NCBI RefSeq assembly: GCF_028710345.1
Contig: NZ_JAQTUH010000006.1
Span: forward strand, 62,001-126,000
Source: Sulfuricurvum sp.
GTDB taxonomy: Bacteria > Campylobacterota > Campylobacteria > Campylobacterales > Sulfurimonadaceae
Length of the DNA stretch: 64,000 nucleotides
Direction: 5' to 3'
The notes under the pieces: generated by a model
Told to the model about the DNA's origin: nothing
Databases searched by the model: none
What the model saw: only the letters and a program-made list of their open reading frames with translations
Shown: positions 25,526 to 41,467 of the stretch, piece by piece
Numbering within the stretch: position 1 is the stretch's first letter
Layout: every line of letters begins with the position of its first letter
Position numbers and translations under genes: made by a program

Positions 25526-26565
25526 AGCCCCTCCTCTTCGAGAATTGCAAGGGCATTAATCCCCTCGCATACATTAACCCGACGGATTAACACATTCAAA
25601 AAAAGCTCTTCTTCCAAATAACGTTTGAGTTCATCTCCTCCATTATCCCCATCTGCAATACAAACTGTTTCAATAAATCGATTTTGACACTCATCACTGA
25701 GATAAAAACGGTGCAGCAGTGTTTGTATAAATTCAAAACGCTGATATTCTGCACTTGAAGCATCAAGATTACTTTTAATCGCGTCAATATTACGCTCTTT
25801 TTCAATCCGAAGTTCTTCAGGTGTTAAAACGTCTTCGCTAAATTCACTCACCTCATCCAACGAGTCAAGATCGGCAATATCGCTCAAAGAATCCAAATCA
25901 TCCAAGAGATCAAGATCTTCGAGATCTTCAATATCATCGAGATTAATCGAGTTATCATCGAGATGTTCATCAGGGATAGCGTGAGAAAATTCCATCGAGG
26001 AGTCTGATTCGCCTGAAACGCTGAGAAGATTACTGTGTGCAGTAGTAAAGTAGTGCCCGTATTCTAATTTTCCGTTATCAAAAATGGCAACACAAAAAAA
26101 ATCTTCCATTCCAAAAGCATAAAGAGCCAACGTAGTTTTAATTTTATCGGCAAAATAGTGCTCAATCATCGAAAAAGGGGAAAATACAAAATCGAGACCT
26201 ACACTTGAGTAATGGTGGCGAAGCTGATAAAGCTCATCGTAAGAAGCGTATTGTGTCCACTCATTTTGGCGACATAATATTTGGATACCGACAATATCTT
26301 CATGATGAAGCGGTACAAGCTTGGAACAACCGGCATACGCACCTTGATTGGGGAGAAGATTAAGAGTACTGATATAAAAATAGGGAGAGGCATCCACCAT
26401 CTCCTCGATATATTTATTCATGGCATTAGATGGGGAAGTTCCCTCAAAATGGCGCTGTTCTTTAAACAGAACTTTTTTATTTTTGGTCACCATACATAAA
26501 ACATCATACCCGTTATCTTTAGAGACAATGGCAACAAATATTTTTTTAAATAGTCGTTCCAGCAC
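25522..26565 (-). CDS. PilM/GspL-like cytoplasmic protein with acidic Asp/Leu tract
   Basis: 347 residues starting at a GTG that shares one base with the stop of the recombinase gene (TAGTG), with AAAGGG upstream. Its place ahead of PilN- and PilO-like genes suggests the actin-like PilM/GspL component. Residues about 199-246 are a striking low-complexity acidic tract (DDIEDLEDLDLLDDLDSL and similar) that would be disordered or helical and highly charged, and it separates an N-terminal from a C-terminal half. Classical ATP-binding motifs of PilM are not evident. The identity is an inference from context. Confidence 0.5.
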   Translation of the reverse strand: MLERLFKKIFVAIVSKDNGYDVLCMVTKNKKVLFKEQRHFEGTSPSNAMNKYIEEMVDASPYFYISTLNLLPNQGAYAGCSKLVPLHHEDIVGIQILCRQNEWTQYASYDELYQLRHHYSSVGLDFVFSPFSMIEHYFADKIKTTLALYAFGMEDFFCVAIFDNGKLEYGHYFTTAHSNLLSVSGESDSSMEFSHAIPDEHLDDNSINLDDIEDLEDLDLLDDLDSLSDIADLDSLDEVSEFSEDVLTPEELRIEKERNIDAIKSNLDASSAEYQRFEFIQTLLHRFYLSDECQNRFIETVCIADGDNGGDELKRYLEEELFLNVLIRRVNVCEGINALAILEEEGL

Positions 26566-27410
26566 TAAGACCCTTTCGATGTTTTACACAATGGATGCGA
26601 TTGTAAATAATTTTCCATCTTGAGCGCATTTCCCAATTTTGTGTATATCTGTGTTGTTGCCATACTTTTGTGACCGAGCAATTCACTCACATCAGAAATT
26701 CGTGCTCCATGATTTAACAGCTCCGTTGCGTACGCGTGTCTAAGCTGATGAGGGGTCACTTTCAGTCCATGATGTGCAAATGCCTTGGTAAGGATATATC
26801 TTAGACTATTTTCGCTTAATTTTTCTCCTCCCTCCTCAAAAACATACTCTTTTGTAGGAAAAATGGTCTGGTATTCCTGCATCATTGTATGCACCTCAGG
26901 GAGGATGGGAATATCACGTTCCTTGGAACCTTTTCCTAAAACTCGGCACCATCTCTCGTTAACATCGGAGCGTTTTAAGTGAGAAAGTTCTGAAATACGA
27001 AGCCCCATCGTATAAAGCAATGTAATCACTAATTTTTCTATTGGCTCTGCCGTGGAGAGTACTTGCACTATATGGAGATGGGATACAGGTTTTGGTAACG
27101 ATTTGGGAACTTTAATACTCTCATCACCACGCAAGAGTAGATTATGTTTTTCTGATTTCAAGTATTTAACAAAGCTTCTTATAGCACTCAGTTTTGCCGA
27201 AATTGTTTTGGGTTTTAAAGAGGCAATTTCTAGACGTAACGGCATCAGATTAATCGTAATCACGCCATCTTCTTCAACAGTCTCAGCCTTATTAATCATC
27301 TCTTCCAATGCATGAGCGTAACTTCTAATACTTAATAGCGAATACCCCTGCATCCCTTCACACTGCTTTAAAAACTCCTCTTTAAAACGGTGAAGTTTTT
27401 CTTTAATCAC
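26565..27410 (-). CDS. Xer-type tyrosine recombinase
   Basis: 281 residues. N-terminal SAM-like core-binding domain (about 5-95) and C-terminal catalytic domain with a complete active site: R138 in GLRISEL, K160 in LGKGSKERDIPI, H221 and R224 in HQLRHAYATELL, H247 in LGHKSM and the nucleophile Y256 in TTQIYT. This is the layout of XerC/XerD/XerH, which resolve chromosome dimers at dif. In this phylum a single Xer (XerH) often acts alone, so that is the likely role; an integrase function is less likely because it lies in a housekeeping run overlapping DUF374 by four bases. Confidence 0.85.
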   Translation of the reverse strand: MIKEKLHRFKEEFLKQCEGMQGYSLLSIRSYAHALEEMINKAETVEEDGVITINLMPLRLEIASLKPKTISAKLSAIRSFVKYLKSEKHNLLLRGDESIKVPKSLPKPVSHLHIVQVLSTAEPIEKLVITLLYTMGLRISELSHLKRSDVNERWCRVLGKGSKERDIPILPEVHTMMQEYQTIFPTKEYVFEEGGEKLSENSLRYILTKAFAHHGLKVTPHQLRHAYATELLNHGARISDVSELLGHKSMATTQIYTKLGNALKMENYLQSHPLCKTSKGS

Positions 27411-38506: not shown

Positions 38507-39052
38507 ATGAACATTGCGCTCTTTGGCGGAAGTTTCGATCCTCCCCATTTCGGTCATATACAGATTGTCCTTGCGGCACTCTCTACTTTAGAGATTGATA
38601 AACTTATCATTGTTCCTGCCTATCGCAATCCCTTAAAACATTCGATATGTGCGAACGGTGCGAAACGGGTAGAATGGTTAAAAACCATTTTTAAATCCTA
38701 CCCAAAAGTGGAAATCAGTGATTTTGAAGTTTCTCAAAATCGACCTGTGTATACGATTGAAACTGTATTACATTATGAAACTGCAACCGATAAGATTTTT
38801 CTTATCCTTGGAGCGGACAATGTAGAAAAACTATCGCAATGGCATCAATTTGACCTCCTTAAAAATAAGGTCACTTTTGTAGTTGCCACGCGAGATAACC
38901 ATCATGTACCCGCAAACATGATAACACTTAAAATCAATGAGCCTATCAGCTCAACCCTTTTTCGAAACTCTTTTGGCTCACTTGGGCTAGATGAGATGGT
39001 CGAAAATGAAATTATTACCTACTACAAGGAAAACCATGAATCCACGAATTGA
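38507..39052 (+). CDS. nadD: Nicotinate-nucleotide adenylyltransferase
   Basis: 181 residues. The nucleotidyl transferase signature is ALFGGSFDPPHFGHI near the start, with the H-x-G-H motif, and the C-terminal ISSTLFRNS matches the ISSTxIR motif. It makes nicotinate adenine dinucleotide from nicotinate mononucleotide and ATP in NAD synthesis. rsfS overlaps its end by 17 bases; nadD-rsfS pairing is widespread in bacteria. Confidence 0.95.
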   Translation: MNIALFGGSFDPPHFGHIQIVLAALSTLEIDKLIIVPAYRNPLKHSICANGAKRVEWLKTIFKSYPKVEISDFEVSQNRPVYTIETVLHYETATDKIFLILGADNVEKLSQWHQFDLLKNKVTFVVATRDNHHVPANMITLKINEPISSTLFRNSFGSLGLDEMVENEIITYYKENHESTN

Positions 39053-39365
39053 AAAAATGTCCCATATCCTCGATATGAATAAAGCCGAAAACATCGAAGT
39101 GTTTGACCTCGCAGGGAGCGATTATTTTGCTGACTATGTCATTATCGCCTCTTCACTGGGTGAACGTCACACATTAGCCCTTCTTGACCACCTCAAAAAA
39201 GGGCTTAAACCGGAAGAACAATTTTTATATGTCGATGAGAGCGGTGATTGGGTTGCTATCGATTTGGGAGATATCTTAATCCATATCCTTACACCGCAAT
39301 ACCGTGCAAAATACGATTTAGAGAGCTTTTTAAAAGAAGTATCGGCACGTAAAAACAAAAATTAA
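39036..39365 (+). CDS. rsfS: Ribosome silencing factor RsfS
   Basis: About 109 residues from the ATG at 39036, which has AAGGA five bases upstream inside nadD. Family blocks: IEVFDLAGSDYFADYVIIASSLGERH and VDESGDWVAIDLGDILIHILTPQYRAKYDLE. RsfS binds ribosomal protein uL14 and blocks subunit joining when nutrients are short. Together with HPF (9124) it provides ribosome down-regulation in this window. Confidence 0.95.
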   Translation: MNPRIEKMSHILDMNKAENIEVFDLAGSDYFADYVIIASSLGERHTLALLDHLKKGLKPEEQFLYVDESGDWVAIDLGDILIHILTPQYRAKYDLESFLKEVSARKNKN

Positions 39366-39370
39366 TAGCT

Positions 39371-39393
39371 AAAAAGCATCTTTTAAGCTTTTT
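39371..39393 (+). terminator. Intrinsic terminator after rsfS
   Basis: AAAAAGC (39371-39377) pairs with GCTTTTT (39387-39393), giving a stem with a terminal T run six bases after the rsfS stop codon. Confidence 0.55.
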
Positions 39394-39397
39394 AAGC

Positions 39398-39403
39398 TAT
39401 AAT
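39398..39403 (+). promoter_or_regulatory. -10 box of tRNA-Arg
   Basis: TATAAT 18 bases before the tRNA 5' end, directly after the rsfS terminator, so the tRNA has its own promoter. Confidence 0.55.
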
Positions 39404-39420
39404 TTCGTTCTCTCAAATAT

Positions 39421-39497
39421 GCGTCCGTAGCTCAGCTGGATAGAGCACCGGTTTGCGGTACCGGCGGTCAGGGATTCGAATTCCTTCGGGCGCACCA
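39421..39497 (+). tRNA. tRNA-Arg, anticodon GCG
   Basis: 77 bases with encoded CCA. Acceptor GCGTCCG/CGGGCGC (one G-T pair), D stem GCTC/GAGC, anticodon stem CCGGT/ACCGG with loop TTGCGGT, variable CGGTC, T stem AGGGA/TCCTT with loop TTCGAAT. The anticodon read from the loop is GCG, which pairs with the arginine codon CGC. Most bacteria read CGU/CGC/CGA with an ACG (inosine) tRNA instead. Its last base starts a 17-base direct repeat. Confidence 0.94.
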
Positions 39498-39513
39498 CTT
39501 ACAAACACCGTAA
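39497..39513 (+). repeat. Left 17-bp direct repeat (att-like)
   Basis: ACTTACAAACACCGTAA, beginning at the final A of tRNA-Arg. Identical to 40872-40888. Confidence 0.93.
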
Positions 39514-39608
39514 TCATCAATTTTAGTTTTATTTTTAAAATCAAACTGTTAACAGTATAAAGTATAAATGCACACAACAGTTTTATATACAAAGAATAGG
39601 TTGTATTT

Positions 39609-40856
39609 ATGTTGAAAGTTATAATTTTTGGAACTTCAAACTCAGTTATGAGAAATGGTTGGGTGGCTGGCTTAAGTTCAAATAGTAAAATTGAAGTAAA
39701 AAATATTTCGATAGGTAGATCACCTTCTTTAATGCATATAGCAAATATAATTAAATATAAAGAAGAACTTAAGCAGGTAGATTTAATATTACTTGAGCAT
39801 TATGTAAATGATATTAACTTTTATATTGGCAATTTTGAAGATAACTACTATATAAAATTAATCGAAGATTTATTAGCATTTATTTCAACTTTAAATAAAC
39901 CGATAATAAGTGTTATGTTGCCAATTTTCAATATTCAAAAAAAAATATCATATGCATCAGTTGATATCCTTAAAAAACTCTATAGCATATATAATATAAT
40001 GTATATAGACTTCAATAATTTCAGTGAGTTTAAATTTGATTATCATAATGATGAAATCCATTTAAAACATTATATTGCTTTTTTTTTAGGAAGTGAGCTT
40101 TCAAAAATATTATATGAATATAAGTTTCCAAAATTTGATGCACAAAAACTACAATCTCAACCATATAAAATTTTCGAGTGCCATGATATCGTATCATCTT
40201 CTTCTAACTACACTGAAAATGATATAGTAAAAATTTCAAACTCTTTAACTAAATATGAGTACATACAACTTATACATGATATAGATATTTCCTCTTTTAA
40301 GGACTATGAACTCATTGCTATAGCCTATCATAATTGTGAAAATATAAATCATATTTTTCAAATTAGCACAGAAAAAGAATCTATATCATACAAAACAGTA
40401 GGGGTGCAATATTTTGTAGAAACACTTAATAAACCTATAAGAATTGATTCTTCCACTACCATTTCTGTGCCTAAGAATAATTTTGCTGATATCAAACCTT
40501 TAATGAATAGAAATGATCAAACAGACTTTACTAATAAGTTTTCTGGAGTTTATCTATCTTATTTACTGTTTAAATTAAAAAATAATCATATTTCTGTATC
40601 AACAAAACAAATGCAAATCAAAAATGATATAACGTTTTTAATGGAAGAGAGTGTAAAAAAAATCCCTATAATGTTTGACGAGTTAATAGTAAAAAATTCA
40701 AATGATAAAGTTGATATAATAAGAGAAGCAGCACTAGCTGTAGAAAAAATCAATCTGAAACTTGCTTATGATTTAATGATGATTGCCCATCAATTAAGAC
40801 CTAATGGTCCTTTCATCAAAATCAAATTAGATGAGTATCGAATGCAATTAAGTTGA
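39609..40856 (+). CDS. SGNH/GDSL hydrolase-like protein of unknown function, AT-rich
   Basis: 415 residues, much richer in Ile, Asn, Lys and AT-ending codons than its neighbours, which suggests transfer. The N-terminal half has an SGNH-like layout: IIFGTSNSV with S10 as possible nucleophile, HYVNDIN with N67 in the position of block III, and NDEIHL with D148 and H151 as the DxxH of block V. The C-terminal half (about 170-415) is unrecognised and ends in a helical segment. SGNH enzymes deacylate sugars or lipids and are frequent in surface glycan islands. No signal peptide. Function remains open. Confidence 0.7.
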   Translation: MLKVIIFGTSNSVMRNGWVAGLSSNSKIEVKNISIGRSPSLMHIANIIKYKEELKQVDLILLEHYVNDINFYIGNFEDNYYIKLIEDLLAFISTLNKPIISVMLPIFNIQKKISYASVDILKKLYSIYNIMYIDFNNFSEFKFDYHNDEIHLKHYIAFFLGSELSKILYEYKFPKFDAQKLQSQPYKIFECHDIVSSSSNYTENDIVKISNSLTKYEYIQLIHDIDISSFKDYELIAIAYHNCENINHIFQISTEKESISYKTVGVQYFVETLNKPIRIDSSTTISVPKNNFADIKPLMNRNDQTDFTNKFSGVYLSYLLFKLKNNHISVSTKQMQIKNDITFLMEESVKKIPIMFDELIVKNSNDKVDIIREAALAVEKINLKLAYDLMMIAHQLRPNGPFIKIKLDEYRMQLS

Positions 40857-40871
40857 TTAATGTTAGTTATT

Positions 40872-40888
40872 ACTTACAAACACCGTAA
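40872..40888 (+). repeat. Right 17-bp direct repeat (att-like)
   Basis: ACTTACAAACACCGTAA, 15 bases after the stop codon of the AT-rich gene. Identical to 39497-39513. Confidence 0.93.
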
Positions 40889-40957
40889 AAATAAAACTTC
40901 CCTTAACTTTTAGTAATCACAACAATCGTTTCGTTACCTATCACGCTTTCTCAATAA

Positions 40958-41467
40958 CTATCGTAACTGATTAATCTTTAACACAAACTCCACTTCTGCT
41001 TTGGATAATCGTAGCTCTTTGGCGATACCATCAACATCCATCCCTTGATTGTATCGGCTCACCACTTTTTCATCATCCAATCCACTGATTGAACTTGGGA
41101 GGGATAAATTTCGGATACGCTCTTCGAGGTAACGAAGACGATTTTCTGTTTTCTCTTTGTAGGCACTAAACGTCCCCTCAATGTGTCCCAAAGATTCCAT
41201 AATCGGAATTGAAATTTCATTCATGTTATCCGATGCATGTGCATGATTTGAGTTGATAGCTACATTCTCTTGCAAGGATGCAATCAACTCCATCTCCGCA
41301 CTCAAACGCTTATCCACTTTATAGAGCTCGCGATGAAGCTCTTCAACTGCATGAGCGATAGAGCGAAGTTTTGCAGTCGTTTCATTCTCCCTATTGATCG
41401 AATAATAAATCAACCCCAAGACCAGAGCAGCAATAGCTATAAGTATTATCTCTATCCCTATACTCAT
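40958..41467 (-). CDS. Membrane-anchored coiled-coil protein with C-terminal helix-turn-helix-like segment
   Basis: 169 residues. One N-terminal transmembrane helix at about 3-23 (IGIEIILIAIAALVLGLIYY), then a long coiled coil (about 28-125) and a C-terminal block DDEKVVSRYNQGMDVDGIAKELRLSKAEVEFVLKI that reads like a small helix-turn-helix. I do not recognise a named family. It overlaps the PilZ-like gene by four bases and is the third gene of a leftward run with the prenyltransferase. A role near the membrane is likely; DNA binding is possible but unproven. Confidence 0.65.
   Translation of the reverse strand: MSIGIEIILIAIAALVLGLIYYSINRENETTAKLRSIAHAVEELHRELYKVDKRLSAEMELIASLQENVAINSNHAHASDNMNEISIPIMESLGHIEGTFSAYKEKTENRLRYLEERIRNLSLPSSISGLDDEKVVSRYNQGMDVDGIAKELRLSKAEVEFVLKINQLR

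Follow-up and report, generated by a model that had tools for sequence, protein, structure and literature searches.

A single AT-rich gene inserted behind tRNA-Arg in Sulfuricurvum and the source of the 17-bp repeat on either side of it

A lone gene in a Sulfuricurvum genome lies between two copies of a 17-bp sequence, ACTTACAAACACCGTAA, of which the left begins at the last base of tRNA-Arg (gcg) and the right lies 15 bases past the stop codon of the gene. This raised the question of whether the repeat is a recombination site or has some other source, and of how the gene came to be there. We analysed the window, a stretch of 64,000 nucleotides containing the locus, within its source genome (3.01 Mb in 46 contigs) and against 40 congeners, with tRNA genes called by ARAGORN. 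The two copies are exact direct repeats at the positions listed in Table 1, as an earlier note on this DNA had reported, and a scan of the whole window tolerating up to 3 mismatches returned no further match. They are also the only two exact copies in the genome, which excludes the outcome that the note had set against its own reading, a motif common genome-wide; one additional site carries 2 mismatches and has no tRNA beside it. By our own arithmetic, about 5e-6 chance recurrences of an exact 17-mer within 2 kb are expected at such composition. The flanks of the two identical copies diverge immediately outside them. It could be that the last A of the tRNA belongs to both copies by chance, in which case the true repeat would start one base later, immediately behind the tRNA.

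The 1,375-bp unit is a foreign insertion directly behind tRNA-Arg. The GC content of the gene is 25.2%, compared with a mean of 41.8% (s.d. 4.2%) for the 50 open reading frames of the window, and its GC3 is 18.8%; both values are the lowest of the set, and the description of the gene as conspicuously AT-rich is upheld. We observed no copy of the gene in 227 other genomes of the family, all congeners included, so that its presence in all relatives, a second outcome that the note had held against itself, is likewise excluded. Apart from the protein itself, family matches to its 415 residues cover only the C-terminal 45-60 residues and lie within other proteins. Two congeners, G478 and G481, share the gene order and have tRNA-Arg, one 17-bp copy and then the right-hand neighbour gene with nothing coding in the interval, which is the empty single-copy site that the note had proposed to look for; the distance from the tRNA end to the right-hand neighbour is approximately 190 nt in G478 and 270 nt in G481. 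When the flanks of the window are joined they match the G478 junction with no gap, through the tRNA, 16 bp, five variable bases and then AACTTCCCTTAACTTTTA. By this ungapped fit, the 1,375 bp precisely separate the tRNA from what formerly followed it. An insertion beside an intact tRNA that is missing in relatives is what a tRNA-targeted element would leave, and identical short repeats at the exact ends together with a single-copy empty site are what would be seen for a cassette with a 17-bp att site. Between the two copies there is one gene, no second open reading frame of at least 60 residues and no match to a recombinase or integrase, in agreement with the note. A consensus scan of the leader for a promoter or terminator found none that was convincing.

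Table 1. Features of the tRNA-Arg site, in window coordinates
Feature	Position	Strand	Remarks
Gene taken to be RsfS-like	38991..39365	+	Left-hand core boundary in congeners
tRNA-Arg (gcg), intact	39421..39497	+	Called by ARAGORN; target of integrating elements in the genus; partial 3' copies at the islands of G002, G008 and G013
Left 17-bp copy, head of the conserved post-tRNA segment	39497..39513	+	Agreement with the consensus runs to about 39520 (TCATCAA)
AT-rich leader of the insert	39514..39608	+	
Foreign gene, 415 aa	39609..40856	+	N-terminal SGNH-like domain, middle of unknown fold, C-terminal module common to polysaccharide-cluster proteins
Right end of the insert, 15 bp	40857..40871	+	Carries no tRNA 3'-half fragment, unlike the right ends of real islands
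Right 17-bp copy	40872..40888	+	
Post-tRNA segment, continued	40889..40927	+	Corresponds to the right half of the empty G478 site
Conserved neighbour gene, 169 aa, function unknown	40958..41467	-	Right-hand core boundary in congeners

In the genus, tRNA-Arg is an integration hot spot at which integrase-free occupants are common. Six congeners carry other cargo there (G002, G008, G013, G025, G005 and G007), as the earlier note had suggested a comparison might reveal. In the first four of these, cargo follows the tRNA and ends in a repeat of the tRNA 3' half, beyond which lies chromosome or a further unit. This repeated part is approximately 45 bp long and starts in the anticodon loop (TTGCGGTACC...). 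The G008 island is 32 kb in length, and a tyrosine recombinase is found near the right end in both G008 and G013. The G002 unit, of 6.1 kb, has no recombinase and terminates in a tRNA 3'-half copy (L050:311-6519); we take its genes to encode a MarC-like protein, a thiamine-diphosphate enzyme and a catalase-peroxidase (KatG). G025 contains two tandem units, neither with a recombinase. They repeat the sequence that follows the tRNA, as the window does, except that in G025 a 3' fragment of the tRNA precedes the second copy. These units are two tandem giant RTX/adhesin-like genes (L087:5222-16116) with the tRNA 3'-half copy between them. In many other congeners one or a few genes are inserted in the interval from tRNA-Arg to the adjacent core gene, with no att remnants. 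G036 encodes an integrase with 67% identity to that of G013, and two complete tRNA-Met genes, separated by 7.2 kb, flank it (L135:3751-11020), so this integrase group uses both tRNAs. The site is thus one where surface and stress genes, among them an SGNH-like enzyme, RTX-type giant proteins, KatG and what is presumably a phosphoethanolamine-transferase-like gene, come and go, often with no integrase. A literature search on islands of the genus found nothing on the tRNA-Arg site.

The unit in the window lacks the parts that define these islands. The source genome contains no second tRNA-Arg 3' half, and a degenerate tRNA fragment sought ahead of the right 17-bp copy was not found. The right arm of the kind common to G002 and G013 is absent from the unit, which has no att parts on its right side and encodes no integrase; the source genome encodes several tyrosine recombinases, none of them a close relative of the G013 integrase. 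With no second tRNA 3' half, right arm or integrase, the unit is not an intact island.

Where, then, does the 17-bp repeat come from? A conserved segment of approximately 70 nt, with the consensus CTTACAAACACCGTAATCATCGAACTTCCCTCAACTTTTATCAAACACTAAAATCACTTAAGAATTC, stands behind tRNA-Arg in many congeners, and the 17 bp are the head of this segment. Of the exact copies viewed in their context in the genus, all but the right copy in the window lie directly behind the 3' end of a tRNA. This right copy goes on as the post-tRNA segment, with 82% identity to the consensus over 55 nt from position 40873, and the left copy follows it for just 21-24 nt before the insert begins. This difference suggests that the two copies are different alleles of the segment, with the resident version on the right and an incoming version, which would have arrived with the insert, on the left. 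The proposal that the 17 bp are a duplicated core is not supported: they are the head of a segment that normally stands behind the tRNA, and true islands at this site repeat the tRNA 3' half. The repeat is most likely the best-conserved head of two segment copies and not a crossover core. A convincing flanking repeat can thus arise from the usual sequence behind a tRNA.

The post-tRNA segment also stands behind tRNA-Met in G015, and a variant of it behind tRNA-Met in G018. The G015 tRNA-Met version (L066:1400-1600) and the G008 tRNA-Arg version are 90% identical over 70 nt and then share GGGACATACCTTGGGACATACTTT, and the segment at tRNA-Arg in G025 is nearly identical to the G008 and G015 version. 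From these comparisons the segment appears to move with elements across tRNA targets.

On balance we think it probable that the insert is decayed cargo of a tRNA-targeted island, or of a composite of such elements. A local element targeting tRNA genes, or a composite, would have delivered the gene behind tRNA-Arg along with a post-tRNA segment of its own. A subsequent deletion would then have taken any integrase along with the right arm and the second tRNA 3' half, leaving one gene with the resident segment copy on its right and the incoming copy on its left. The unit is probably immobile now. A shortened post-tRNA segment without a tRNA fragment in G010 indicates that decay of this sort does happen. 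The weak point of the account is that the right junction coincides exactly with the point at which the tRNA end meets the post-tRNA segment, a point that a random deletion would hit in only a few percent of cases (an estimate of about 3 in 115 positions). It is also at odds with the account that no integrase, right arm or second gene has left any trace, and that the left copy retains only approximately 21-24 nt of the 70-nt segment. We nonetheless favour a remnant over a cassette mobilised in trans; the source of the repeat is ordinary, and the unit is most likely what remains of an element of a common kind.

The exact right boundary would be explained by a single-gene circular cassette with a crossover inside the 16-17-bp sequence, driven by a recombinase acting in trans. 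We regard this as rather unlikely. The boundaries are exact on both sides, with identical copies whose flanks differ just outside, and the four junctions fit an attP x attB exchange. The ends of the repeat also form a 4-bp inverted repeat with a 7-bp spacer (TTAC-N7-GTAA), which resembles a small tyrosine-recombinase core; the segment starts immediately behind the 3' end of tRNA-Arg, behind tRNA-Met and behind the window gene, and the genome encodes several tyrosine recombinases. However, about one match to the TTAC-N7-GTAA pattern is expected by chance per window, and post-tRNA segments of other types at tRNA-Arg do not have the inverted repeat. The tRNA context of the other exact copies and the crossover of known islands within the tRNA 3' half also speak against it, and a family-wide pattern search found no second gene bounded by 17-bp copies, the second copy in G025 being preceded by a tRNA fragment. 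No cognate recombinase was found. In a more specific form, which seems doubtful to us, the insert would be a minimal one-gene mobile cassette using a 16-bp sequence, TTAC-N7-GTAA, that lies in the trailer of tRNA-Arg (and of tRNA-Met), and moved by a tyrosine recombinase of the chromosome or of an island. If the 17-bp site were recombinogenic it would represent a new minimal cassette system, and if the cassette reading were true, single surface-modification genes would have an integron-like route in the genus.

The Xer-type recombinase gene at 26565-27410, put forward in the earlier note as a candidate mover, was rejected as an enzyme specific to the cassette. Its score is under the NCBIfam cut-offs for XerC and XerD, and it lies approximately 12 kb from tRNA-Arg both here and in seven congeners that do not carry the cassette (G002, G005, G007, G008, G013, G029 and G478). 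This synteny marks it as a core gene, with nothing tying it to the insert.

It is also conceivable, at a still lower probability than for a crossover in the short repeat, that the gene arrived by DNA uptake followed by homologous or homology-facilitated illegitimate recombination. Donor DNA carrying tRNA-Arg, the segment and the gene would have recombined on the left through tRNA homology and on the right illegitimately. Anchors for such an event exist, as the tRNA and approximately 23 nt beyond it are 100% identical even in a member of another genus (G467), and the one- or few-gene inserts lacking att remnants at this site in many congeners are of the kind it would produce. Against it, we found no donor locus with the gene beside a tRNA, and the exact right boundary would again be a coincidence. 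Transposon-like insertion with a target-site duplication would account for direct repeats bounding the insert and is very improbable. The insert ends have no terminal inverted repeats and there is no transposase; target duplications of transposons are usually shorter than 17 bp. We rejected it on the flanks, which are different alleles, as the left copy matches the segment consensus past the 17 bp and the right differs, in place of a fresh duplication. That the gene is native and was lost in relatives, with the repeat arising by chance, has nothing in its favour beyond the presence of the gene and can be practically dismissed, given its absence from the 227 family genomes, its extreme GC content, the empty sites in several congeners and the chance expectation for the repeat.

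The known systems closest to this site are tRNA/tmRNA-targeted genomic islands in tandem arrays and cis-mobilizable elements (CIMEs). The Dehalococcoides ssrA islands form tandem arrays that include integrase-less units (PMC3146451). They resemble the tRNA-Arg site of the genus in having tandem, variable, low-GC cargo behind one RNA gene, with several units lacking an integration module. In contrast to them, the far end of the window unit carries no RNA-gene 3' fragment, and the repeat stands behind the tRNA instead of within it. Accretion and CIMEs are likewise described, and in CIMEs attL and attR are retained and the recombination and transfer genes are lost (PMC5704250). The units of G002 and G025 fit this description well. 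The window unit is CIME-like in being integrase-less cargo at a site that elements with an integrase also use; its recombination genes are gone, but it has no recognisable functional attR, the tRNA 3' half and the right arm being missing, and strictly speaking it is not a CIME.

The protein encoded by the insert appears to be SGNH-like. No Pfam or NCBIfam family scored above cut-off, and a sequence search of the PDB gave no significant match. The SGNH/GDSL hydrolase superfamily is defined by residues in four sequence blocks: Ser (block I), Gly (II), Asn (III) and Asp-x-x-His (V). Across seven distant homologues of the window protein Ser10, Gly36 and His151 are invariant, and Asn67 and Asp148 are conserved in part only; it is on these three residues and on the homologues themselves that the assignment rests. 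A structure prediction from a two-sequence alignment had a pLDDT of 45, too low to confirm the fold. Full-length relatives with 26-31% identity and the conserved Ser, Gly and His are SGNH/GDSL proteins of surface-polysaccharide clusters, one on a Sulfitobacter plasmid (NZ_CP083563) and one in a Halomonas MAG, the latter being the sole relative from a contig scan with a two-sequence profile. The neighbours of the Sulfitobacter gene are glycosyltransferase, GalE and sulfotransferase genes, whereas the window gene stands alone, outside any cluster. Genomes of the same order contain relatives of the N-terminal part, phage and plasmid records contain distant relatives only, and no homologue was found in viral contigs.

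The last 45 residues of the protein (..AxxLRPxGPxIxxKLxEY) also terminate a sulfotransferase-like protein in the source genome's own AT-rich polysaccharide cluster. Because this C-terminal module is common to polysaccharide-cluster proteins, a role in surface-glycan modification is likely, and the gene product would most likely be an SGNH-type esterase or acyltransferase acting on surface polysaccharide. The module, for which no Pfam model matched in the window protein, is possibly a docking module. We also observed it (window 40710-40853; L121:14296-15486; L147; L148) on SGNH-like, sulfotransferase-like and other polysaccharide-cluster enzymes in several genera.

Three further observations concern the tRNA block and the repeat. 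The match in G467 (L149:10489-10565, minus strand) is in a different chromosomal place, and on sequence comparison the tRNA unit itself may have been transferred between genera. The 17-bp motif was seen in two viral contigs, away from any tRNA and apparently within unrelated coding sequence. Finally, the block formed by the promoter region, tRNA-Arg and post-tRNA segment (window 39381-39513) is inverted between the same two core genes among congeners (L051, L052, L053 and L137); its orientation is that of the window in G002, G005, G007, G008, G013, G478 and G481, and opposite in most others.
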